Source: Emticicia agri | GTDB lineage: Bacteria; Bacteroidota; Bacteroidia; Cytophagales; Spirosomataceae | Reading direction: 5' to 3' | Length of the DNA: 64,000 nucleotides | Assembly (NCBI RefSeq): GCF_004168285.1 | Contig: NZ_SEWF01000031.1 | Span: forward strand, 1-64,000 | Part shown: positions 43,577-61,330 of the stretch, one piece after another | How the letters are laid out: each line of letters starts with the position of its first letter | Numbering within the stretch: the stretch's first letter is position 1 | The notes under the pieces: model-generated | Told to the model about the DNA's origin: nothing | Database searches by the model: none | What the model saw: the letters and a program-made list of their open reading frames with translations, nothing else | Program-made: the position numbers and the translations under genes

Positions 43577-44011
43577 ATGAGCACAAGAATCAATATCCAA
43601 CAGGTAGAACCGGCAGCCTATAAAGCTATGTATGCCTTAGAAGGTTATTTGCAAACTTCACAATTAAGTAAAACCCATAAAGATTTAATAAAACTAAAGG
43701 CTTCTCTGATTAATGGGTGTGCCTACTGTATAAATATGCACACCCAGGAAGCAAAGAAACATGGCGAAACCGACCAACGCCTGTATCTGCTAAGTGCCTG
43801 GCGTGAAACTACACTTTACACGGAAGAAGAAAGAGCCATTTTAGCTTTAACAGAAGAGGTAACACTTATTCAGAATCATGTTTCTGAAGAAACCTATCAA
43901 ACAGCAGAAAGATTGTTCGGAGCTAATTATTTATCATCTATTATCATGGCTATTGTAACCATTAATGCCTGGAATAGAATAGCCATTACTACAGAATTGC
44001 CTTTAGATTAA
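43577..44011 (+). CDS. Carboxymuconolactone decarboxylase family (AhpD-like) protein
   Basis: 144 residues, all helical. KASLINGCAYCINMHTQEAKKHG holds the redox/proton-relay CxxC and His of the AhpD core. Members without known ring substrate often act as peroxidase partners or detoxify electrophiles. The pair with a Crp/Fnr-type regulator immediately upstream is a frequent arrangement in Bacteroidota. Terminator at 44031. Confidence 0.92.
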   Translation: MSTRINIQQVEPAAYKAMYALEGYLQTSQLSKTHKDLIKLKASLINGCAYCINMHTQEAKKHGETDQRLYLLSAWRETTLYTEEERAILALTEEVTLIQNHVSEETYQTAERLFGANYLSSIIMAIVTINAWNRIAITTELPLD

Positions 44012-44030
44012 TTATTACTCCAATAAAACA

Positions 44031-44070
44031 AAGCTCTAAGAAACAAGTATTCTTAGAGCTTTTGTTTTTT
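44031..44070 (+). terminator. Rho-independent terminator
   Basis: AAGCTCTAAGAA (44031-44042) pairs with TTCTTAGAGCTT (44050-44061), followed by a T-rich tract. Confidence 0.9.
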
Positions 44071-44094
44071 ATATCAGCACAATGAGTACTTTTG
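44061..44094 (+). promoter_or_regulatory. Promoter of the riboswitch-CLC transcript
   Basis: TTTG at 44061-44064 and TACTTTTG at 44087-44094, 22 nt apart, fit the Bacteroidota -33/-7 pattern. The start point would fall near 44098-44102, just before the riboswitch. Confidence 0.65.
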
Positions 44095-44103
44095 CAGAAA
44101 GAA

Positions 44104-44158
44104 AAAGGAAATGGTGTCTTCCTAATTGAACCGCCTTAAACAAGCTGATGGCGCCTGA
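44104..44158 (+). ncRNA. Fluoride riboswitch (crcB motif)
   Basis: The motif order matches the crcB consensus. P1 is AGGAA (44106-44110) with TTCCT (44119-44123). The conserved ATGGTG lies inside. AACCGCC (44129-44135) and GCTGATGG (44144-44151) flank the short P3. GGTGTC (44113-44118) can pair with GGCGCC (44150-44155) allowing G-U pairs. Position and target support it: the next gene is a CLC of the fluoride type. The RNA binds fluoride via Mg ions and turns the gene on. Confidence 0.9.
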
Positions 44159-44184
44159 TTGTAAATGTTTCACATTTAATCAGG
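44154..44184 (+). promoter_or_regulatory. Expression-platform hairpin sequestering the ribosome-binding site
   Basis: CCTGATT (44154-44160) pairs with AATCAGG (44178-44184), and the inner AAATG with CATTT. The 3' arm covers the AGGA ribosome site 6-10 bp before the ATG at 44192. The 5' arm shares CC with the aptamer's last stem strand, so aptamer and hairpin compete. Translational control is inferred. Confidence 0.65.
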
Positions 44185-44191
44185 AACTGGT

Positions 44192-45493
44192 ATGTCAACT
44201 CACAAACAATCACGCAGAATCATTCTTCAAATCCGTCTGTTTTTCAGACAATTCCCTGCTATACCTTATTTAGCAAAATGGCTTTTTATCAGTTCGGTTA
44301 TCGGTACTTGCATAGGCATAGCTTCTGCTATTTTCTTGCTTACACTCGATTGGGTAACCGATTTTCGGGAAACACACCTTTGGCTCATTGCCTTATTACC
44401 CTTAGGTGGTCTGATTATTGGCTTACTTTACAAACACTTAGGCAAAGACATAGAAGCTGGAAATAATTTACTGATAGATACTATTCATCAACCCAGGACA
44501 ACTATCCCTTTCAGAATGGCCCCTTTTATCTATATTGGTACTTTAGTTACACACCTGTTAGGAGGGTCAGCCGGAAGAGAAGGCACAGCCTTACAAATGG
44601 CAGGAGCCATTGCCGACCAGTTCAGCAAACCTTTCAGATTGTCTGAAAGCGAGAGAAAAATATTATTGATAGCGGCTGTAGCAGCAGGCTTTGGTTCTGT
44701 TTTTGGTACACCCTTAGCCGGAGCCATTTTTGGGTTAGAGTTTTTTCTGATAGGTCGCCTGAGATACGATGCTCTACTGCCTGCTTTTCTCTCTGCTATT
44801 ATTGCCGATTTAGTAACTAAACTATGTCAGGTTCAGCATACGGTTTATCAGATAGGTTTTATTCCTGCTGTTTCGGTTCTTTATCTTCTCTATGCTATAT
44901 TAGTGGGTATTGCCGCAGGTATCTGCGCAGCTACTTTTAGCCGAACTATTCACTATATAAATAGTCTTTTCAAATCAAAAATAAGCTATGCGCCACTTCG
45001 GCCTTTTATCGGAGGTGTTATCGTCGCTCTTGCTATCTGGCTCATGGGTACAACCAAATATATTGGCTTAGGCATACCAACCATCGTACAAGCATTTCAT
45101 GAACCTTTACCCGCCTACGATTTTTTGCTTAAAATGGCATTTACTATACTTACGCTGGCAGCAGGTTTTAAAGGCGGCGAGGTAACACCGCTGTTTTTTA
45201 TAGGTGCCACTTTAGGTAATGCCTTGTCATACATTATTCCTTTGCCGGTAGGCTTACTCACAGGTATGGGTTTTGTAGCTGTTTTTGCCGGAGCTACCAA
45301 TACACCCTTGGCTTGTATGCTGATGGGTATAGAATTATTCGGCCATGAATGTGGCATTTACGCGGCCGTTGCCTGTATTGTTGCTTATTTGTTGTCGGGG
45401 CGTACGAGTATTTATCAAAAACAAATGATTGGCGAACCAAAACATAGTAGATTTGCAAGCCTGAAAGGTAAACGCATGAACGAGTTGGAATGA
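44192..45493 (+). CDS. CLC-type fluoride/proton antiporter (CLC-F)
   Basis: 433 residues, about ten membrane helices. Where chloride CLCs have GKEGP, this has GGSAGREGTALQMAG (~124-138); GREGT/V is the hallmark of fluoride-specific CLC-F proteins. The later GFKGGEVTPLFFIGATLGN replaces GxFxP with GEVTP, again as in CLC-F. There are no CBS domains at the C-terminus. It exports fluoride from the cytoplasm in exchange for protons. The fluoride riboswitch directly upstream confirms the substrate by context. Confidence 0.92.
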   Translation: MSTHKQSRRIILQIRLFFRQFPAIPYLAKWLFISSVIGTCIGIASAIFLLTLDWVTDFRETHLWLIALLPLGGLIIGLLYKHLGKDIEAGNNLLIDTIHQPRTTIPFRMAPFIYIGTLVTHLLGGSAGREGTALQMAGAIADQFSKPFRLSESERKILLIAAVAAGFGSVFGTPLAGAIFGLEFFLIGRLRYDALLPAFLSAIIADLVTKLCQVQHTVYQIGFIPAVSVLYLLYAILVGIAAGICAATFSRTIHYINSLFKSKISYAPLRPFIGGVIVALAIWLMGTTKYIGLGIPTIVQAFHEPLPAYDFLLKMAFTILTLAAGFKGGEVTPLFFIGATLGNALSYIIPLPVGLLTGMGFVAVFAGATNTPLACMLMGIELFGHECGIYAAVACIVAYLLSGRTSIYQKQMIGEPKHSRFASLKGKRMNELE

Positions 45494-51153: not shown

Positions 51154-51223
51154 TATGTAGATTACAATATGCTATTGAGTGGGATTAACCCAATTAGTAA
51201 GTAAATATTAAAAATATTTGCAG

Positions 51224-54200
51224 ATGAGACATATATTTACCACAAACAAAAGAGAACATTTTGCAGGAAATACTTCTACACCTATTAACGTATTTGTACT
51301 TTTAAAAAAAATCAGTACGTCCGTTGGTATTTATCTGAAAAAGTTGGGTCAAAAATCCATTTACAAAGCTCCGGCAACTATTGCTTCAGATAGTTTATTT
51401 TCGGATAGAGTAACTAATAATGAGCCTTATCCGGAAGAAGAGTATCCACATTCTTTGCAAGCAAATGAGCTTAATCAGCTATTGCCTATCAAAGCAAAAT
51501 TAGTGTCAGATACAAGTGCCGCTGTGGTTCAGTCAACAAGTTCTACCAAGACCTATCAGATAGCAAGCATATTTGATGAAGAAACCAAAGAATGGAAACC
51601 TTGCCTTTCTGAGTCAAATCTTGTTTATAAAAATGCTTACAAAGAAAATGACCCTCCGGTAAATCCTTCATTTTTCAGAGGTGCCGCAACAACAATTCTG
51701 TTGGTGCTTTTCTCCGTTTTAGGGGTTTCTGCAAAGAAATTTGCTACCGTAGATTTATCATTACGCAGCATCATTGATAACTCAGCGCCAAGTTTAGGGA
51801 GTTCAATTAAATATATACTCTGGTTAAAGAACGAAGGTGCTACTACTGCTAACAGCATTGTGGTAAAAAATACTTTCCCGATTGGCGGTGTTACCCTTAC
51901 AAGCAATACAGGCGGGGCAGGTTTTACTCATAACACAGGTACCGGCGAGGGCTTGTGGAATATAGCAACCCTTGCAGCAGGCGATTCGGTAAGTTTAGAA
52001 TTAGTGGGAACTGTTACACAAAGGGGTGTGTATTTTAATATTGCTGAAATTAACTCAATAGGCGGTGGAGATACCGACTCTGATTCTACTCCGGGTAACA
52101 ATGACCTTGGTGAAGATGATATTACTACGGTTTGTTCTTCTGTTCCGCTTTTGATTTATCCGGGCGAACAATATACTGTTTTTGTACCAAGTGCTTATAA
52201 GAAAACTGGTACCATTGTGCAATGGTTCAGAAATGGTACAGAAATCATCGAAAGTACCCCTGAGGCAGTAGTAAATACCGACACATCACTTACCATCAAA
52301 GCCATAGGCAATTATACTTTTACTTCTAATGTAGGCGGATGTGTCGGACAAGGCTGTTGTGCCATACAAGTCATTGCAGGCCCTTATGGTAGTATTGGCG
52401 ATTGGGTATGGAAAGATAAAAATGATAATGGCTTGCAAGATACCAATGAACCAGGCATCAAAAACATTATTGTAGAACTCTATACTTTAAATGGTTCAGG
52501 AAATGTATCAGGCAGTGCTATCAGCAAAGATACTACTGATACTAACGGTCATTATCTTTTTTCAAATCTCTTATCTGGCGACTATCTGGTGAAGATAGTG
52601 GACTCAAATTTATCAGATACACTAAGAATTTCAAAGAAAAAAGATGTTGGTTCTGATGATACCAAAGACAATGATTTTACTGCCGCAAACGGATTCTCTA
52701 CCAAAGTAATCATTCATGTTGATTCAACAGGAAACAAAAAAGATAATCTTACTGTAGATGCGGCCTTATATACTCCGGTAGGCAGTATAGGAGACTTTGT
52801 ATGGAACGATAATAATAATAATGGTATTCAGGATGGTGGTGAAGTAGGTTTAAACAATGTAATTTTAGAATTATATTCGGCTGATGCTTCCGGAAACCCC
52901 GTGGGTACTGCCCTGGCAAAAGATACAACCAATGTCAACGGTTTATTCAAATTCAGCAACCTGATTAAAGGTGCTTATGTAGTAAAACTATTGACAAGTT
53001 CATTGCCAGCAGGTTCTGTAATAAGTACGCTTATCAATAGTGGCAGTGATGATATAGTTGACAGCGATTTTAATAGCACTACAGGTTTAAGTGGCAAAAT
53101 CACATTAGACCCCGAAAATGAGTCTAATCCACTTAATAAAGATAACCTGACAATTGATGCAGCCATCTATAATCCACTTGGCTCAATCGGTGATTATGTA
53201 TGGAAAGATACCGATAATGATGGGGTTCAGGATATGGACGAGTCTGGTTTAGGAGGTGTTATTCTGCACCTATATGCTGCGGCTAACGACGGTTCTCCAA
53301 CAGGTAATGTTTTAAAAGCTGATACTACCGATAACAATGGTTTCTACTTGTTTAGTGGTTTAGCACTGGGCGGCTATGTAGTGCAAATCATTACAGCCTC
53401 TCTTCCGGCAGGTAGTGCTATCTCTGAAATGATAGACAAAGGTGGTAATGATACTGCTGACAGCGATTTTAATCCTACTACAGGATATTCAGCAAAAATC
53501 AGCATTGACCCAACCGATAACACCAAAAAAGATATTTTATCAATAGATGCGGCTATCCACCAGACCGTCGCTTGTCCTACACTCGCAGTTTCTACCATTG
53601 ATGGTGATATTTGTGTGGGCGACTCTACTTTTATAAAAGGTATTACCAGTAACAACGCCCCTATCAAGTGGTATTTAGCGGCTATCAATGGTACTCCGGC
53701 ATTTACTACCAATAGCGACGAGTCTCATCTGGTCTATCCTACTACTACTACTACTTACTATGCCGAGATCGACGGAATAAGCCCAGGCTGTCCTAATTCT
53801 CGTCAGCCGGTAGTGATTGTAGTCAATGCTCGTCCGTCACTTCCATCTTGTGCGGGAGTAGTAGATGAGTGTATCGGAAAAACTATTAATCTGAATGATT
53901 ATGTAATTAACGGTGCAACTACACCGGGTGGTACTTTTGAATGGCATACTACGGCCAGTGAAAAATCGCCTCTGGTATCAACACCATCAGCTGTAGGGGC
54001 AGGTGTTTACTATTTATTCGAAAAATCAGGGGCAGGTTGCTTTAGTCCGCCAAGAATGTTAACAGTTAATCTGAAAAACTGTGATACACTCATTGATTTA
54101 AGCCTGACTAAAATTGTAAGTACTACTACTCCTAAAGTATGGGATGATATTATTTATACAATTAAAGTTACAAACGCGGGTCCTCATGCAGCAACTAATG

Positions 54201-57200
54201 TAGAGATTGAAGACCAGATGCCAACAGGTCTGGAGTTCTTATCAAGTGCGTTCTTTACCAAAAATGGCGATATGCTTACTGCCACAATTTCTAATATTGC
54301 AGCAGGGCAAACCATTACCTTAGATTATCTGGTAAAAGTAACATCGCCAGGAGATAAAATAAACTTTGCTCAGGTAAGCAAAGCCGACCAGAAAGATATT
54401 GACTCTACTCCGGGTAATGCTTCTACTACTTCAGAAGATGACAACAGTAAAGTAATTATTTCACCAATTGCAAATGAAATTATTGCTGACCTGAGCTTAG
54501 ATAAAACTGTCAATAAGACCACTGCCACTACTGGTGAGTTAATCACTTATTATGTAACGGTTATCAACAATGGTTCAAATCCTGCTACCAATATTGAAGT
54601 AAAAGATATAGTTCCTGATGGATTAACTATAATTACTGCTACAGGAGCCGACAATATTACTACTTCAGGCGATACCGTAACAGCTAAATTTAATGAAATA
54701 AAAGTAGGTTATGCTTCAACTTTCCAGATAGTTGCCAGAGTAACTGCCACAACGGGAACAATTAAAAACTGGGCTCAGATTACCAAATCAGACCAGAAAG
54801 ACAATGATTCGACCCCTAATAATGGCACAGGAAACGGAGAAGATGATACCGACGATGCAGATATAACCATCACTCCTGGTGCTTGTAATCCTCCTGTTCC
54901 TTTGATTGCTACCTTAAATCCCTACATCTGTACCGGAGAAAGCATCACACTTACTTCAGTAGGTTGTACAGGTACGGTGGTATGGTCAACAGGCGATACA
55001 GGTAATTCTATTACACTTAGCCCGACAAGTTCAACAAGTTATACAGCCAAATGTAAAATTACTAATGATTGTATCAGTGTCAATTCAAACCCAATATCAG
55101 TAGTAGTAAATGTAATAGTGGCTCCGGTTATTACTTCTAATGCCCCTAATAATACTATTTGTACTGGAGGAAGTGTAACTCTCACAGCTACTTTGTGTAC
55201 GGGTAGTGTAATCTGGTCTAACGGCACCACCGCTTCAAGCATAACAGTGAGCCCTACCACTAATACTACTTATACAGCTACCTGTAAAACCAATACCTGT
55301 ACAAGTAATATATCGAACCCGATTACGATTACTATCGGTACTGCAGGCAATGCGCCAACCATTTCAGCGAGCAAAAATGCTATCTGTAATGGCGAAACCG
55401 TAGTGCTTACAGCCAACGGATGTAGCGGCAATATAACCTGGTCGAATGGTTCAACCGGAAGTTCTATAAGCGTTATGCCTGGTACAACAGGTACTTACAG
55501 TGCTACTTGTTCGTCAAGTGGTTGTGGCAGTCAGACTTCTGCACCTATTACCATCACTGTTTCTCCGGCAGCCGAAACTCCGGGTATTAGTGCCAATGAA
55601 GATGTAGTATGTGCAGGAGGGAATGTAAACCTGACGGCTACAGGTTGCAGTGGTACTTTAGTATGGTCTAATGGTGTAAGCAGTTCTGCCATTGCAGTTT
55701 CTCCAGTTAATACCACTACTTATGAAGTTACCTGTGTAAGCGGAGGTTGCAGTGCCAAGGCGTCTAAAACTATTACTGTAAAACCCCAACCTGCGGCTCC
55801 GGTTATTGCAAGTGCAAAAGACCAGATATGTGCAGGCGAGTCAGTAGTATTGACAGCGCATAATTGCGATGGTATAGTTACATGGAGTACAGGTGCTACA
55901 ACCGCAACTATTACAGTAAGTCCAACAATCACTACTTTTTATACCGCTATCTGTAATGTTAATGGTTGCAATAGTGTTACTTCTGCGGCAGATACAGTAA
56001 CTGTATCTACAGCTGTGCCTGTTATAACAGCCACTAAAGAAATTCTCTGTTCAGGAGATTCATCTACGCTTACAGCCTCAGGCTGTTCGGGTTCTCTGTT
56101 ATGGAGCAATGGTCAGACCACCAGCAGCATCACTGTTGACCCTGTGGCATCCATTACTTACTCTGTTATCTGTTCTGCCGGAACTTGCGAAGCTGTAGCC
56201 TCCAAAGCCATTACTGTAAATACTGAAACCAATGTAGCTCCAGTTATCTCGGCATCTAATACGAATCTATGTGCAAGCGGTGAAATAACATTAACAGCTA
56301 CAGGTTGTACAGGCACAGTAATCTGGTCAAATATGCAAACCGGGTCAAGCATTACAGTAAATGTAACAAACACTGTTGTATTTGCAGCCGCTTGTAAAAT
56401 AGGTAATTGTGAAAGCGAAAAATCAAATAATATTACTGTTACCATAGGTAAACTCAATAAACCGGTCATAAGCGCCAATCAGACAACCATTTGTATTGGC
56501 AATGCCGCAACACTTTCTTCAACAGGTTGTAATGGTAATGTAATCTGGTCTAACGGACTTACCGGAAGCACAATAACAGTAAATCCGGTTACTACTACTG
56601 AATATACCGCCGTTTGTAAAGCCGCACAAGGCTCTTGTACAAGCGACGAATCAGCTAAATTAACTATTACAGTTACTGCACAACCAGAGGCACCAATTAT
56701 TGCCTGTACTTGTGCAAGACCAAGAATATGTAAAGGCGATACACTTACCTTGAAAGCCATTGGTTGTTTGGGAACATTTGTGTGGTCGAACGGACAAACC
56801 ACTTCTTCAATTGTGGTAAGTCCGGAAGAAACAACAGTTTATACTGTAAAATGTAAAATAGGTTCTTGCGAAAGTGCCCCATCTGCCGCTGCTACTGTTA
56901 ACGTAGGTAGTCCTGCCCCTCCTTTGGTTAGCTGTAAAAAACCACAGGTTTGTGGTGGTAGTTCAACTACTTTAGAAGCCGCAGGTTGCGTGGGTACTGT
57001 TAAGTGGTCTGACGGACAAGTAGGTGCTGTTATTAATGTATCGCCTTCAACTGTAACCAGTTACTGGGCAATTTGTGATGCCGGAAAATGTCAAAGTGAA
57101 AAATCAAATACCATTACTATACAGGTTAATGGCTCAGGGCTGAAAAAACCAACCACCAAAGACCTTGTGAATGTATGTCCGTTTACCCATGTGGACTTAA

Positions 57201-60200
57201 CTACAGGCGTAACGAGTGCCTTGTCTTCAGTAGGCGGAACATTTACTTTCCGTGCATTTAACAGCCCTGATTCGGCTGTAGTTGCCAATCCTTCATCAGT
57301 AGGAACAGGCTCATACTACGTATTTGAAAAAGCAGGCAATGGTTGTTTCAGCGAAGGAAGCAGAATTAATGTACAGATTATTTCTTGTAACGATACTACC
57401 TCTTGTGCCACCAGTCCGGCTACAGCTAATGCAGGAGTCGATTCTACTGTGTGTATCAACTCTACGTTCTTTACCCTGAAAGGAAAAATCGGGGGTTCGG
57501 CACAAAGTTCTACCTGGACAAGCGATGGTACTGGCTCGTTTGATAATGCACTGAGTCTGAATACAAAATACAACTATACAAGTCAGGATATAGCAAGAGG
57601 CTTTGTACATTTTACACTGACTACCAATGACCCTGATGGCAACGGCCCATGTAAGGCAGCAACCGATAGTATCAGAGTTACACTCAATGGCGTATCTACT
57701 ACACCAACTATCTCAAGCAACAAATCGCCTAATATCTGTGCCGGAGACTCGGTAATACTAACTGTTGCACAAACCGGACCTCGTGTATGGAGTACCGGAG
57801 ATACAACAAAATCTATTGTAGTAAAAACATCAGGCACTTACTCTGTTAAATTACTAAATGCTCAGGGTTGTTCATCATTAGGTTCGAATGTAATTAATGT
57901 AGTAGCCAACGATACCATAGATGCTCCATCGGTGGTAGCAACAGCTAAAAATACTTGTCCGTCTACTACAGTCAATCTTACCAATGCCGTTACAAGTGCG
58001 CCTAGAACACCGGGTGGAGTATTTGAATTCCATACAGGTGCTACGCTCAATTCACCGTTGTTGACTAACGCAACAGCCGTTGGAGCAGGCACTTATTATG
58101 TATTTGAGAAAAGTGCCATAGGTTGCTACAGCCCAAGTGCACCAATTGTAGTAGCTATTGATACATGTACTACACCTCCCGGCGATACTGCCAGCGTTGA
58201 ATTAGGCATTACTATCGTAGGTTCAAGGGTTGAATTAGGCGTAGGCGACCCGCTGACTTATACCATTACAGTAACTAATAATACCATGCACACAGCCACT
58301 AATGTGCATATCACTAATATTCTACCAAAAGGTATTACCATTACTTCTGCTACCCCAGGCCTTACAGCTTTCGGTACAGACTCATTGGTAAGTGTGATAG
58401 GTACATTCCCTGGCGGAGCTGTTAAGACTTACACATATACAGCCAAAACTACCAAAGCAGGTACTATCAGAAACATAGCCAAGATTACTAAACTTGACCA
58501 GGTTGACCCAATTCTTACCAATAACATCAGTCATTGGGATATTAATTGTGCTACCTGTCAGGAAATCTGTACAGCTATGTCATTGGCAGCCGATACAACC
58601 CGTCAGGCAAATGGTAGCTACAATGTAACTTTCCGTGCATTTGTTGAAGCCTGCGGAAACGTGAAATTAGAAAACGTGGAGGTTACCCAGAACCTTGCTG
58701 TCATGTTCCCTTCTCCGGTTACTTATACCATTATTCAGAAACCAACAGTAGGTGCAGGAAGCAAGATTATACCAAATGATAATTTCACTGGTTCATCTGA
58801 CCTGAATCTTACCATTCCGACTGGTAGCGAAATAGAAGCTGGTGTAACTGATACGATAACCTTTGTTATCAACATTGTACCAAATGGCAATCAAGGGCCA
58901 TTCAGTACCAATGCGATTGTCAAGGCTACAGGAATGACAATATTCGGTATTTCTGATGATGTATCTGATGTATCAAACAATGGTCCTTATATTGATAAAC
59001 CAAGTGCGGAACCAACCGTTGTAAGACTATATAAGAGCCCAAGCATTGGGTTAGCCAAAATTGTATCAGACAGTACCAAGAAAACAAATGGCTCATATGA
59101 TGTTACTTATCAGTTATTGGTTAAAAATAATGGCTCATTACCTTTAACCAATGTAGTACTGACAGACACATTATCAAAAACATTCAATTTACCGGCTACA
59201 TTTACCGTATTAGGGTCTCCGGTTAAAAATGCTGGCAGCCAGTTAGTGATCAATAGTGCATTTAATGGTACAACAGATACCCGTCTGACACTCCCTGGCA
59301 GTACTTTAGCTATCGGACAAACAGATACACTTCTGTTCAGTATTAATCTACAACCTGATACGATAAAACTATTTGCTAATACAGCGGTAGTAAATGCCTC
59401 GGGCACGTTAGCCAGCGGTACCAATGAGAATGTAGTTGATTTATCAAATGCAGGTACTAATCCTGATGCGCCGGGCAGTAATCCGACCAACCTGAACTTA
59501 GACCCCGGTGGTATGAGTTCAATCGAAATTCCTTGTCTGGGTATTGCCTTGTCTGTAAAAGATACGATTAAACAAGCTGATGGAAGTTATAATGTGTATT
59601 TCCGTTCAATTATCAAAAACTGTGGTAACCTGACATTGTCGAACGTAATGTTATGTGATACGCTGACAAACACATTCCCGGCACCGGTACAGGCAACTAT
59701 TGTACAGGCTCCTACCATCAGTGCAGGAACACAATTAGTACCTAATAGTAACTATGACGGTGCTGCTAACTCTTGTCTGCTAACAAGCGGAAGCATTATA
59801 GCTCCAGGCAGAGTTGACACAGTAAAATGGGTAGTAAACATAAAACTGAATGGCAATTTAGGACCGTTTAAAAACTCTATCATTGTTTCGGGTAAAACTC
59901 CGGCAGGTTTAACTATCAGTGATATTTCTAATGATGGCATTAATCCGGATCCGGCAGGAAGTACCCCCACGGTTATCAACTTCAACAGCGTGCCTGAAGT
60001 CATGATTGGTATCTCTAAAGAAGCTACTGAACCAACTAAAGTAACTGACCGTACCTACGATGTTACCTTTAAGTTTAAAGTGAAAAACTACGGAAAAACC
60101 GACTTCACAGGTGTTCAGGTACAGGATAACCTTGCGGTAACCTTTGGAGACAGCGTGAGAATTGATTCGGTTAGTGTAACAGCAGATGCCGGATTTACAG

Positions 60201-61330
60201 TAGATACTTCTTATACCGGACGTGGTAACCTGATTAATTTATTAGTTGATACATTAAGTACACTTCCTAAGAATACTACCCGTAATATCACAGTCTTTAC
60301 ACGTGTAACGCTTTCAGAGGGTACTAATTCTTTTGCCAATCAGGCATTAGCTATAGGTAAATATCCAACCAATAAATCGGTTGACGACTTATCAACCAAC
60401 GGTACAGACCCGGATCCTGATGGTAATGGCAATCCGAAAGATAACAGTATTGCTACTCCAATTACTATAGATGGTATTATTCCAAGTACTACAACTGTAC
60501 TGGGTATTGCAAAATCAGCTCTGTTAGATACCATTCCTAATGCAGACAAAACCTATAATCTGACTTATAGATTTGTTATCAAAAACTATAGCACACGTAC
60601 ACTCACAAATGTACAGCTAAGTGATAGCCTTGACCACGTATTCTCAGCCGACGATAGCAGCAATTATATTATTGCCGCACCGCCAACTTTGAGCGCAGGT
60701 AGTCAGTTGAAACTGAACCCAGACTTTAATGGACGAACCATTGAAACAACCGGAATAACCACCATGTTGATTGCCGATAGCAGTTCGCTGGCACCGGGAG
60801 CTTCAGATACCTTAGAGTTGAAATTAAGGGTTGTAACTGAAAAACAAGAGGCTGTTATTTTTGCTAATAGTGCCTACGGTAGTGCCAGAGATACCACTGC
60901 TACCATAAGAGATGTTTCTCAGACCGGAACTGACCCAGACCCTGACGGCGACGGTAATCCGGGCAATAATAGTGCGCCAACGCTGATAACTATCGGAGAT
61001 GAGATTCCGACACCAAATGATACAGCAACAGCGATTATTCCGGGAGGTTTTTCTCCTAATAACGATGGCGTAGGTGATAAGTTCTTTATCGAAAATATCA
61101 ACAAAACCAATGTTAAAGCAAGCATCTATATATATAACCGTTGGGGTAGCTTAGTCTATAAAAACGAAGACTATGGTAAGTCTGAAGGTTGGGATGGAAA
61201 AGCCAATAATGGGCTGGTATTACTAAGCGACGGCAAAGATGTTCCAGACGGCACTTATTACTATGTAGTACAGGCTGAAGGAAAATGGGAAGGAAAACCG
61301 GTAATTGGTTTTATTACAATTGCCCGATAA
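51224..61330 (+). CDS. Giant type IX secretion cargo (3368 aa) with SdrD_B, DUF11 and Ig-like repeats
   Basis: Starts at the ATG 51224; a TTG six bases upstream is less likely. Residues 1-150 are polar, then a hydrophobic segment (~155-168, TTILLVLFSVLGVSA) looks like a signal sequence placed far from the N-terminus. Next: a DUF11-like domain (~170-300), three SdrD_B domains starting near 389, 520 and 653 (GSIGDWVWKDKNDNGLQD type), two DUF11 domains (~957, ~1087), ten tandem four-cysteine Ig-like units of ~75 residues (~1220-1970; ICxGxxxxLTAxGC...WSNG), further Ig/PKD-like units, a DUF11 (~2323), and five ~155-residue repeats (~2445-3265). Residues ~3270-3368 (GGFSPNNDGVGDKFFI...NRWGSLVY) are the gliding-motility-associated CTD (T9SS type B). 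Probably a surface adhesin. A PorP/SprF gene follows. Confidence 0.93.
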   Translation: MRHIFTTNKREHFAGNTSTPINVFVLLKKISTSVGIYLKKLGQKSIYKAPATIASDSLFSDRVTNNEPYPEEEYPHSLQANELNQLLPIKAKLVSDTSAAVVQSTSSTKTYQIASIFDEETKEWKPCLSESNLVYKNAYKENDPPVNPSFFRGAATTILLVLFSVLGVSAKKFATVDLSLRSIIDNSAPSLGSSIKYILWLKNEGATTANSIVVKNTFPIGGVTLTSNTGGAGFTHNTGTGEGLWNIATLAAGDSVSLELVGTVTQRGVYFNIAEINSIGGGDTDSDSTPGNNDLGEDDITTVCSSVPLLIYPGEQYTVFVPSAYKKTGTIVQWFRNGTEIIESTPEAVVNTDTSLTIKAIGNYTFTSNVGGCVGQGCCAIQVIAGPYGSIGDWVWKDKNDNGLQDTNEPGIKNIIVELYTLNGSGNVSGSAISKDTTDTNGHYLFSNLLSGDYLVKIVDSNLSDTLRISKKKDVGSDDTKDNDFTAANGFSTKVIIHVDSTGNKKDNLTVDAALYTPVGSIGDFVWNDNNNNGIQDGGEVGLNNVILELYSADASGNPVGTALAKDTTNVNGLFKFSNLIKGAYVVKLLTSSLPAGSVISTLINSGSDDIVDSDFNSTTGLSGKITLDPENESNPLNKDNLTIDAAIYNPLGSIGDYVWKDTDNDGVQDMDESGLGGVILHLYAAANDGSPTGNVLKADTTDNNGFYLFSGLALGGYVVQIITASLPAGSAISEMIDKGGNDTADSDFNPTTGYSAKISIDPTDNTKKDILSIDAAIHQTVACPTLAVSTIDGDICVGDSTFIKGITSNNAPIKWYLAAINGTPAFTTNSDESHLVYPTTTTTYYAEIDGISPGCPNSRQPVVIVVNARPSLPSCAGVVDECIGKTINLNDYVINGATTPGGTFEWHTTASEKSPLVSTPSAVGAGVYYLFEKSGAGCFSPPRMLTVNLKNCDTLIDLSLTKIVSTTTPKVWDDIIYTIKVTNAGPHAATNVEIEDQMPTGLEFLSSAFFTKNGDMLTATISNIAAGQTITLDYLVKVTSPGDKINFAQVSKADQKDIDSTPGNASTTSEDDNSKVIISPIANEIIADLSLDKTVNKTTATTGELITYYVTVINNGSNPATNIEVKDIVPDGLTIITATGADNITTSGDTVTAKFNEIKVGYASTFQIVARVTATTGTIKNWAQITKSDQKDNDSTPNNGTGNGEDDTDDADITITPGACNPPVPLIATLNPYICTGESITLTSVGCTGTVVWSTGDTGNSITLSPTSSTSYTAKCKITNDCISVNSNPISVVVNVIVAPVITSNAPNNTICTGGSVTLTATLCTGSVIWSNGTTASSITVSPTTNTTYTATCKTNTCTSNISNPITITIGTAGNAPTISASKNAICNGETVVLTANGCSGNITWSNGSTGSSISVMPGTTGTYSATCSSSGCGSQTSAPITITVSPAAETPGISANEDVVCAGGNVNLTATGCSGTLVWSNGVSSSAIAVSPVNTTTYEVTCVSGGCSAKASKTITVKPQPAAPVIASAKDQICAGESVVLTAHNCDGIVTWSTGATTATITVSPTITTFYTAICNVNGCNSVTSAADTVTVSTAVPVITATKEILCSGDSSTLTASGCSGSLLWSNGQTTSSITVDPVASITYSVICSAGTCEAVASKAITVNTETNVAPVISASNTNLCASGEITLTATGCTGTVIWSNMQTGSSITVNVTNTVVFAAACKIGNCESEKSNNITVTIGKLNKPVISANQTTICIGNAATLSSTGCNGNVIWSNGLTGSTITVNPVTTTEYTAVCKAAQGSCTSDESAKLTITVTAQPEAPIIACTCARPRICKGDTLTLKAIGCLGTFVWSNGQTTSSIVVSPEETTVYTVKCKIGSCESAPSAAATVNVGSPAPPLVSCKKPQVCGGSSTTLEAAGCVGTVKWSDGQVGAVINVSPSTVTSYWAICDAGKCQSEKSNTITIQVNGSGLKKPTTKDLVNVCPFTHVDLTTGVTSALSSVGGTFTFRAFNSPDSAVVANPSSVGTGSYYVFEKAGNGCFSEGSRINVQIISCNDTTSCATSPATANAGVDSTVCINSTFFTLKGKIGGSAQSSTWTSDGTGSFDNALSLNTKYNYTSQDIARGFVHFTLTTNDPDGNGPCKAATDSIRVTLNGVSTTPTISSNKSPNICAGDSVILTVAQTGPRVWSTGDTTKSIVVKTSGTYSVKLLNAQGCSSLGSNVINVVANDTIDAPSVVATAKNTCPSTTVNLTNAVTSAPRTPGGVFEFHTGATLNSPLLTNATAVGAGTYYVFEKSAIGCYSPSAPIVVAIDTCTTPPGDTASVELGITIVGSRVELGVGDPLTYTITVTNNTMHTATNVHITNILPKGITITSATPGLTAFGTDSLVSVIGTFPGGAVKTYTYTAKTTKAGTIRNIAKITKLDQVDPILTNNISHWDINCATCQEICTAMSLAADTTRQANGSYNVTFRAFVEACGNVKLENVEVTQNLAVMFPSPVTYTIIQKPTVGAGSKIIPNDNFTGSSDLNLTIPTGSEIEAGVTDTITFVINIVPNGNQGPFSTNAIVKATGMTIFGISDDVSDVSNNGPYIDKPSAEPTVVRLYKSPSIGLAKIVSDSTKKTNGSYDVTYQLLVKNNGSLPLTNVVLTDTLSKTFNLPATFTVLGSPVKNAGSQLVINSAFNGTTDTRLTLPGSTLAIGQTDTLLFSINLQPDTIKLFANTAVVNASGTLASGTNENVVDLSNAGTNPDAPGSNPTNLNLDPGGMSSIEIPCLGIALSVKDTIKQADGSYNVYFRSIIKNCGNLTLSNVMLCDTLTNTFPAPVQATIVQAPTISAGTQLVPNSNYDGAANSCLLTSGSIIAPGRVDTVKWVVNIKLNGNLGPFKNSIIVSGKTPAGLTISDISNDGINPDPAGSTPTVINFNSVPEVMIGISKEATEPTKVTDRTYDVTFKFKVKNYGKTDFTGVQVQDNLAVTFGDSVRIDSVSVTADAGFTVDTSYTGRGNLINLLVDTLSTLPKNTTRNITVFTRVTLSEGTNSFANQALAIGKYPTNKSVDDLSTNGTDPDPDGNGNPKDNSIATPITIDGIIPSTTTVLGIAKSALLDTIPNADKTYNLTYRFVIKNYSTRTLTNVQLSDSLDHVFSADDSSNYIIAAPPTLSAGSQLKLNPDFNGRTIETTGITTMLIADSSSLAPGASDTLELKLRVVTEKQEAVIFANSAYGSARDTTATIRDVSQTGTDPDPDGDGNPGNNSAPTLITIGDEIPTPNDTATAIIPGGFSPNNDGVGDKFFIENINKTNVKASIYIYNRWGSLVYKNEDYGKSEGWDGKANNGLVLLSDGKDVPDGTYYYVVQAEGKWEGKPVIGFITIAR

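Follow-up and report, generated by a model that had tools for sequence, protein, structure and literature searches.

Stockbridge (2012) is said to have described a class of CLC proteins whose genes have a fluoride riboswitch in front of them, and it is this arrangement that we find at positions 44098–45493 of a 64-kb stretch of DNA from Emticicia agri (64,000 nucleotides, the whole of which is called the window below). Riboswitches of a comparable kind operate in Pseudomonas syringae and Burkholderia pseudomallei, two bacteria that use Shine–Dalgarno (SD) sequences. The fluoride riboswitches of these species are reported to be translational, and control without a terminator also seems to apply in E. 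agri; the combination of an aptamer with a hairpin, as present at 44098–44184, has been reported for the fluoride riboswitch class as a whole (PMC13273304). The main text of that paper contains no word beginning with 'Bacteroid', and no title among the matches listed in our literature search concerned expression platforms of fluoride riboswitches in Bacteroidota, although this is weak evidence of novelty, as subscription papers and preprints lay outside the scope of the search.

In the ribosomes of Bacteroidia, according to PMC9976891, bS21, bS18 and bS6 form a pocket that keeps the anti-SD, and SD sequences go unrecognised; initiation in the class is described as relying on upstream adenines and low structure (PMC9976891, PMC6847099). 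Our analysis confirms that the fluoride-response unit of E. agri is real, correctly assigned in the preliminary description of this DNA, and of a familiar kind. Its expression platform, however, is apparently SD-independent, as far as can be judged from sequence.

The fluoride-response unit of Emticicia agri

The aptamer and the CLC gene are located between a gene for a CMD-family protein and a gene for a CYTH-domain protein (table 1), with the CLC start codon 27 nt downstream of the aptamer. The upstream gene is probably ended by a terminator-like stem at 44030–44062 that scores on the minus strand too, the terminator scan having returned two sites against a shuffle mean of 0.3. A separate feature of the window is a plus-strand ORF of 3370 aa (51218–61330) in which many repeated extracellular-type domains can be discerned by eye.

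Table 1. Features of the fluoride-response unit and its upstream flank, in positions of the window.
Feature	Position	Strand	Remarks
CMD-family protein gene	43577–44011		upstream neighbour of the unit
Intrinsic-terminator-like stem-loop and T run	44030–44062	+	13 pairs, then TGTTTTTTAT
Possible −33 element, TTTG	44061–44064	+	22 nt 5' of the −7 box; weak alone
−7 element, TACTTTTG	44087–44094	+	fits TAnnTTTG, presumed consensus
Fluoride riboswitch aptamer, RF01734	44098–44164	+	47.3 bits (gathering score 34); E 5.4e-10; model 1–64 of 64
P1 (crcB blocks GGAA/TTCC)	44107–44110/44119–44122		RF01734 alignment
Pseudoknot 5' strand, GGTGTC	44113–44118	+	pairs with 44150–44155; read by hand from the RF01734 alignment
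crcB block AACCGCC	44129–44135		
P3	44133–44136/44142–44145		RF01734 alignment; one non-standard pair
crcB block GCTGATGG	44144–44151		
Pseudoknot 3' strand (crcB block GGCGCC)	44150–44155	+	last two bases common to the hairpin, as is T44156
Expression-platform hairpin, CCUGAUU...AAUCAGG	44154–44184	+	3' end 7 nt before the start codon
AGGA	44182–44185	+	AGG paired, A44185 unpaired; read here as the complement of CCU 44154–44156 plus one base
CLC-F fluoride/proton antiporter gene (predicted)	44192–45493	+	433 aa; GNNLL, GREGT, GEVTP; PF00654, E 1.8e-73

The promoter proposed earlier is borne out by a promoter-like box just upstream of the aptamer. We take TAnnTTTG, accompanied by a −33-like TTTG, to be the promoter consensus of Bacteroidota and have read the −7 and −33 elements of table 1 in this light. 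Of 120 distinct leaders from Bacteroidia, 93 have TAnnTTTG in the 45 nt preceding the aptamer (shuffles: mean 5.0, maximum 10), a scan for sigma-70 promoters gave nothing useful, and the position of the −7 box makes a transcription start near 44098–44102 probable.

Like the RF01734 class at large, the aptamer is matched over its full length and above the curated cut-off, and the 3' strand of its pseudoknot also begins the expression platform. It is the sole Rfam match above a gathering score in the window and the only RF01734 match genome-wide, and all blocks of the crcB motif recognised in the preliminary description are indeed present in the order and places it gave. Elsewhere in the sampled genomes, three (G084, G295 and G377) have two or three fluoride aptamer matches within about 6–23 kb of a single contig; G084 and G295 each include a match that falls just short of the cut-off.

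The gene downstream had been assigned to the fluoride-specific rather than the chloride CLCs, and our searches agree. Its product has the fluoride set of motifs in place of the chloride GSGIP/GREGP/GxFxP, and among its solved relatives the F-/H+ antiporter 6d0j (E 6.1e-60) ranks first, far ahead of the best other CLC, 1kpl (E 3.7e-13); motifs and ranking together rule out a chloride CLC. In the motif table of PMC5100911, fluoride CLCs have GNNL(L/I), GREG(T/V) and GEVTP, and chloride CLCs are of the GSGIP/GREGP type; the Emticicia protein shares its three motifs with the CLC-F antiporters (6d0j, and the motif types given in that source for Pirellula staleyi and for Ralstonia pickettii). Nothing notable sets it apart from them: as a CLC-F of Bacteroidota it is ordinary, with 85% identity to the CLC-F of Emticicia sp. 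C21. Four NCBIfam models of chloride CLCs or ion channels matched it as well, all far under their own cut-offs. The genome has a second CLC, with GSGIP, GREGP and GGVFAP, and yielded no CrcB/Fluc match at E values up to 0.001; the CLC-F is probably the main fluoride exporter of the cell.

Two partners for the 3' end of the pseudoknot

In the hairpin that follows the aptamer, the closing pairs C44154–G44184, C44155–G44183 and U44156–A44182 are made by bases that the aptamer uses too. That the two structures share a strand was part of the preliminary description and stands, but its length was wrongly put at 2 nt: three nucleotides (44154–44156) are shared, the third being the U at position 48. 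We equate 44154, 44155 and 44156 with positions 46, 47 and 48 of the crystal-structure numbering, U48 presumably belonging to the ligand-dependent core of the aptamer. In a stretch of 35 nt the hairpin folds with −10.9 kcal/mol, where shuffles average −3.51 kcal/mol (z −3.79; one of 200 as good), and the total fold of a 94-nt stretch beginning inside the aptamer is unremarkable (z −0.74). The isolated hairpin (31 nt) has −9.8 kcal/mol, or −3.8 kcal/mol when the three shared pairs are taken away.

For comparison, we collected leaders from genomes with RF01734 matches, namely 51 of 222 in the family, 55 of 395 in a phylum sample and 55 of 395 in a class sample overlapping the latter, and added those 32 of 36 named CLC loci that carry the aptamer. 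From the 165 leaders thus gathered, seven weak ones (L089–L093, L148, L179) were dropped by hand together with ten duplicates, and the 148 kept comprise 120 from Bacteroidia and 28 from the remaining classes of the phylum; they are distinct in sequence, not phylogenetically independent. Nine phylum and 14 class matches fell below the cut-off and were left out, and a match from the genus (L006, 23.6 bits) was also unused. An ORF of at least 400 aa follows 104 of the Bacteroidia leaders and is a CLC-F by phmmer and motifs in 103 cases; start codons were set by a rule of our own, not by annotation. 'Fluc-size' refers to ORF length alone (95–160 aa); of 30 ORFs so defined, 17 matched a loose Fluc motif. 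Among the 11 Fluc-size ORFs of Bacteroidia, L086 is probably a piece of a CLC. The four close relatives, out of 36, in which the aptamer is absent by pattern before the CLC-F gene are L049, L059, L061 and L066.

A helix of positions 46, 47, 48, +1 and +2 with one downstream strand can be formed in 93 of the 120 Bacteroidia leaders (shuffles: mean 8.2, maximum 15) and is missing, as defined, in the other 27; in the remaining classes it is found in 10 of 28 (mean 3.3, maximum 9). It precedes an ATG in 83 of the 104 leaders of long ORFs, and removal of L152, which is not a CLC-F, leaves the 82 leaders used below. As the helices were selected for pairing, how often the two outer positions pair says little, and the evidence lies in the range of pair types seen there: among the 83, +1 has G-C in 54, A-T in 27 and G-T in 2, and +2 has A-T in 37, T-A in 17, C-G in 15, G-C in 10 and a wobble in 4.

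Position 46 is more telling, for it has a partner in each structure. On the pseudoknot side, the 120 Bacteroidia leaders have C-G in 110 of 112 cases and U-A in all eight of theirs, the exceptions being one C-U and one unread. On the hairpin side, circularity was avoided by choosing the helices from positions 47, 48, +1, +2 and +3, without 46. The base then found opposite C46 is G in 82 of 89 leaders (A in four, C in three), and that opposite U46 is A in three of four (L004, L109, L165; L153 has T). The joint tally at position 46, 78 C-G-G and four U-A-A (n = 82), is partly circular, because it was made on the helices defined through position 46, which had to pair there; the evidence used here is the count from the helices chosen without it. 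The 104 include eight U46 leaders. Four of these carry the helix ahead of an ATG, and three (L153, L166, L178) show none under our definition; the eighth, L165, has the partner strand immediately after the AUG, in codons 2–4 and thus inside the coding region.

A second U46 set was obtained from two other families with a pattern fixed to the pseudoknot A and U46, which matched in 78 of 301 and 35 of 299 genomes. Many of the matches are by eye not aptamers; the 35 aptamer-like ones were fetched and gave 33 distinct leaders, several of them near-identical and many from close relatives within one genus. Chosen without position 46, helices formed in 14, with A opposite U46 in 11. The full helix is present in 18 of the 33 leaders (shuffles: mean 3.0, maximum 8) and absent from 15; its downstream strand is AGA in 15 of the 18, AGG in two and GGA in one, and of the 17 leaders with an assigned start, 15 have it 1–3 nt upstream of that start. 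Position 46 covaries with its partner in either structure, and most Bacteroidia leaders can form the helix; both observations support the earlier proposal of a competition between pseudoknot and hairpin for the shared strand.

The shared strand also marks a difference from the rest of the RF01734 class, positions 44–48 being CGCCU in 93 of the 120 Bacteroidia leaders (CUCCU in 15) as opposed to CUCCU in 26 of the 28 leaders from other classes of the phylum. This class difference is confounded with the gene that follows, since Bacteroidia leaders of Fluc-size ORFs mostly have CUCCU as well (9 of 11). In seven Bacteroidia leaders of Fluc-like ORFs (L155, L163, L167, L168, L170, L171, L174) the ATG follows the aptamer at no more than about 25 nt, with no hairpin between; by eye, CUCC(U)ACC in them matches GG-rich N-terminal codons of Fluc, a pairing that would enclose the start and may be due to chance.

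Shine–Dalgarno masking and other explanations

The preliminary description had the hairpin hide AGGA as a ribosome site, which fluoride would then free to pair with 16S rRNA. The AGGA does lie 6 nt before the AUG, and the 16S rRNA gene of the genome retains an intact anti-SD (CACCTCCTTTT). Across the 38 ORFs in the window that are 150 aa or longer, pairing with the anti-SD has a median of +0.5 kcal/mol and never reaches −7 kcal/mol or below; the CLC-F leader, with −4.3 kcal/mol, ranks first. The AGGA before the CLC-F gene is unusual among these ORFs but weak. An SD-like spacing is also common in the relatives: measured from the base opposite position 46 to the AUG, it is 5–7 nt in 52 of the 82 CLC-F leaders, most often 6 nt (36 of 82), and A follows AGG in 29 of the 48 AGG leaders so spaced.

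The same leaders nevertheless speak against masking of an SD, which we consider unlikely. In 13 of the 82 the strand is only 0–2 nt from the AUG, and 11 of these 13 are without an in-frame ATG in the next 30 codons; the remaining distances are 4 nt (two leaders), 9–14 nt (13), 22 nt and 25 nt (one each). An SD 0–2 nt from the AUG is too close to function. The AGG itself is accounted for by its complementarity to the CCU at the pseudoknot end: in helices chosen without position 46, A replaces the last G in 14 of the 18 U46 cases from the two sets, and the strand becomes mostly AGA. We take Spirosoma aureum to be a member of the family of E. agri. SD genes make up 1% in this species (PMC10783764). 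The claim of a hidden ribosome site is thus unsupported on two counts, in that the class of the host is reported to ignore SD sequences (PMC9976891) and that the masked strand in the relatives, at 0–25 nt from the AUG, keeps neither a fixed SD spacing nor SD letters. It is here that the E. agri platform departs from those of P. syringae and B. pseudomallei, the distance between hairpin and AUG and the AGG not being kept as an SD would need.

Since the AGGA leader is the best of 38 and the 5–7 nt spacing prevails, some SD role is possible in this locus; a weak one, or one specific to ribosomes free of bS21, might exist in the 5–7 nt leaders, that of E. agri included. A sharp contrast in SD use between Bacteroidia and the rest of the phylum is made less likely by the leaders themselves: those of Fluc-size ORFs in other classes have a median of −4.9 kcal/mol and GGAG in only 7 of 19, and Bacteroidia leaders of ORFs of at least 400 aa have −3.9 kcal/mol and GGAG in 3 of 83.

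A strong SD does occur elsewhere in the genome. As would be expected of a host from this class, it is rpsU (L125, contig C48, 12652–12804, minus strand), the gene in which an SD should persist, whose start is preceded by an extended SD, AAAAGGAGGTGT, that can pair with the 16S tail (−15.6 kcal/mol). By its sequence this fits the bS21 autoregulation reported for Bacteroidota, which is described for about 20% of Cytophagales only, mainly Cyclobacteriaceae (PMC9976891).

Less probable still is control of transcription, in which the hairpin would serve as a terminator, either intrinsic or assisted by Rho, when fluoride is absent. Many fluoride riboswitches are reported to work by termination (PMC2864571, PMC13273304), and one relative, L172, has six T after its hairpin, so that termination may operate there; in E. 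agri, however, the hairpin is followed by AACTGGTATG without a U run, and the terminator scan found no site at 44154–44184, which rules out an intrinsic terminator at this place. It is very improbable that the 3' arm AUCAG (44179–44183) also or mainly invades the aptamer core, an OFF state that would unfold the aptamer: CUGAU is present both in the core (44145–44149) and in the hairpin arm (44155–44159), so the 3' arm has two possible partners, and a fold with the pseudoknot strands withheld does pair 44145–44149 with 44179–44183, but invasion needs a GAT-type arm, and GATT or GATC is found in only 37 of 83 leaders, others having ATTA, GGTT, GCAA or ACGA among more.

A possible mode of control without Shine–Dalgarno pairing

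We consider it probable that the fluoride riboswitch controls CLC-F synthesis, most likely at translation, through the structure of the hairpin and without an SD. That fluoride is the ligand here, that it acts in the ON direction and on translation, and that SD pairing plays no role are all points that we infer, the ON direction from the riboswitch family and the role of the exporter. Transcription would begin at the start predicted above. Without fluoride, CCU 44154–44156 and AGG 44182–44184 would close the hairpin just before the AUG, and its structure would hinder loading of the 30S subunit. With fluoride and Mg2+, the CC would be kept in the pseudoknot and the next U in the aptamer core; deprived of its closing pairs, the hairpin would lose much of its stability, and the ribosome could melt the remainder. 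CLC-F would then be made and export fluoride.

Local folding of the 82 leaders is consistent with the central step. When CCU (positions 46–48) is withheld, the unpaired probability of the arm is 0.49 as opposed to 0.02, and the MFE averages −6.2 instead of −11.1 kcal/mol. The start codon, in contrast, is not opened by the same treatment, its mean openness changing from 0.61 to 0.44, with a decrease of more than 0.1 in 44 of the 82 leaders and an increase in three, which makes an opening of the start codon itself by fluoride less likely. In the E. agri leader the MFE changes only from −12.2 to −8.9 kcal/mol and AUCAG can re-pair with CUGGU, which makes the size of the effect uncertain in this species.

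On a wider scale, and with the chances for and against it evenly balanced in our view, Bacteroidia may have a class of translational riboswitches that is independent of the SD. The regulated strand would be set by complementarity to the 3' end of the pseudoknot and by closeness to the AUG, which it may touch or, as in L165, follow inside the coding region, and fluoride would tune the stability of a start-proximal hairpin and expose no ribosome-binding sequence. The change from CUCCU, which mimics the anti-SD, to CGCCU would then be a trace of the loss of SD use in this lineage.

The pairing of a fluoride riboswitch with a CLC-F gene is in itself expected, and the usefulness of the locus lies in what is apparently a translational riboswitch in a class of bacteria whose ribosomes hide their anti-SD. 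The natural variants of the masked strand (AGG, AGA and GGG, at 0–25 nt from the AUG) make riboswitch control without an SD testable in Flavobacterium johnsoniae, and the leader may yield a small fluoride-inducible control element for the genetics of Bacteroidota.
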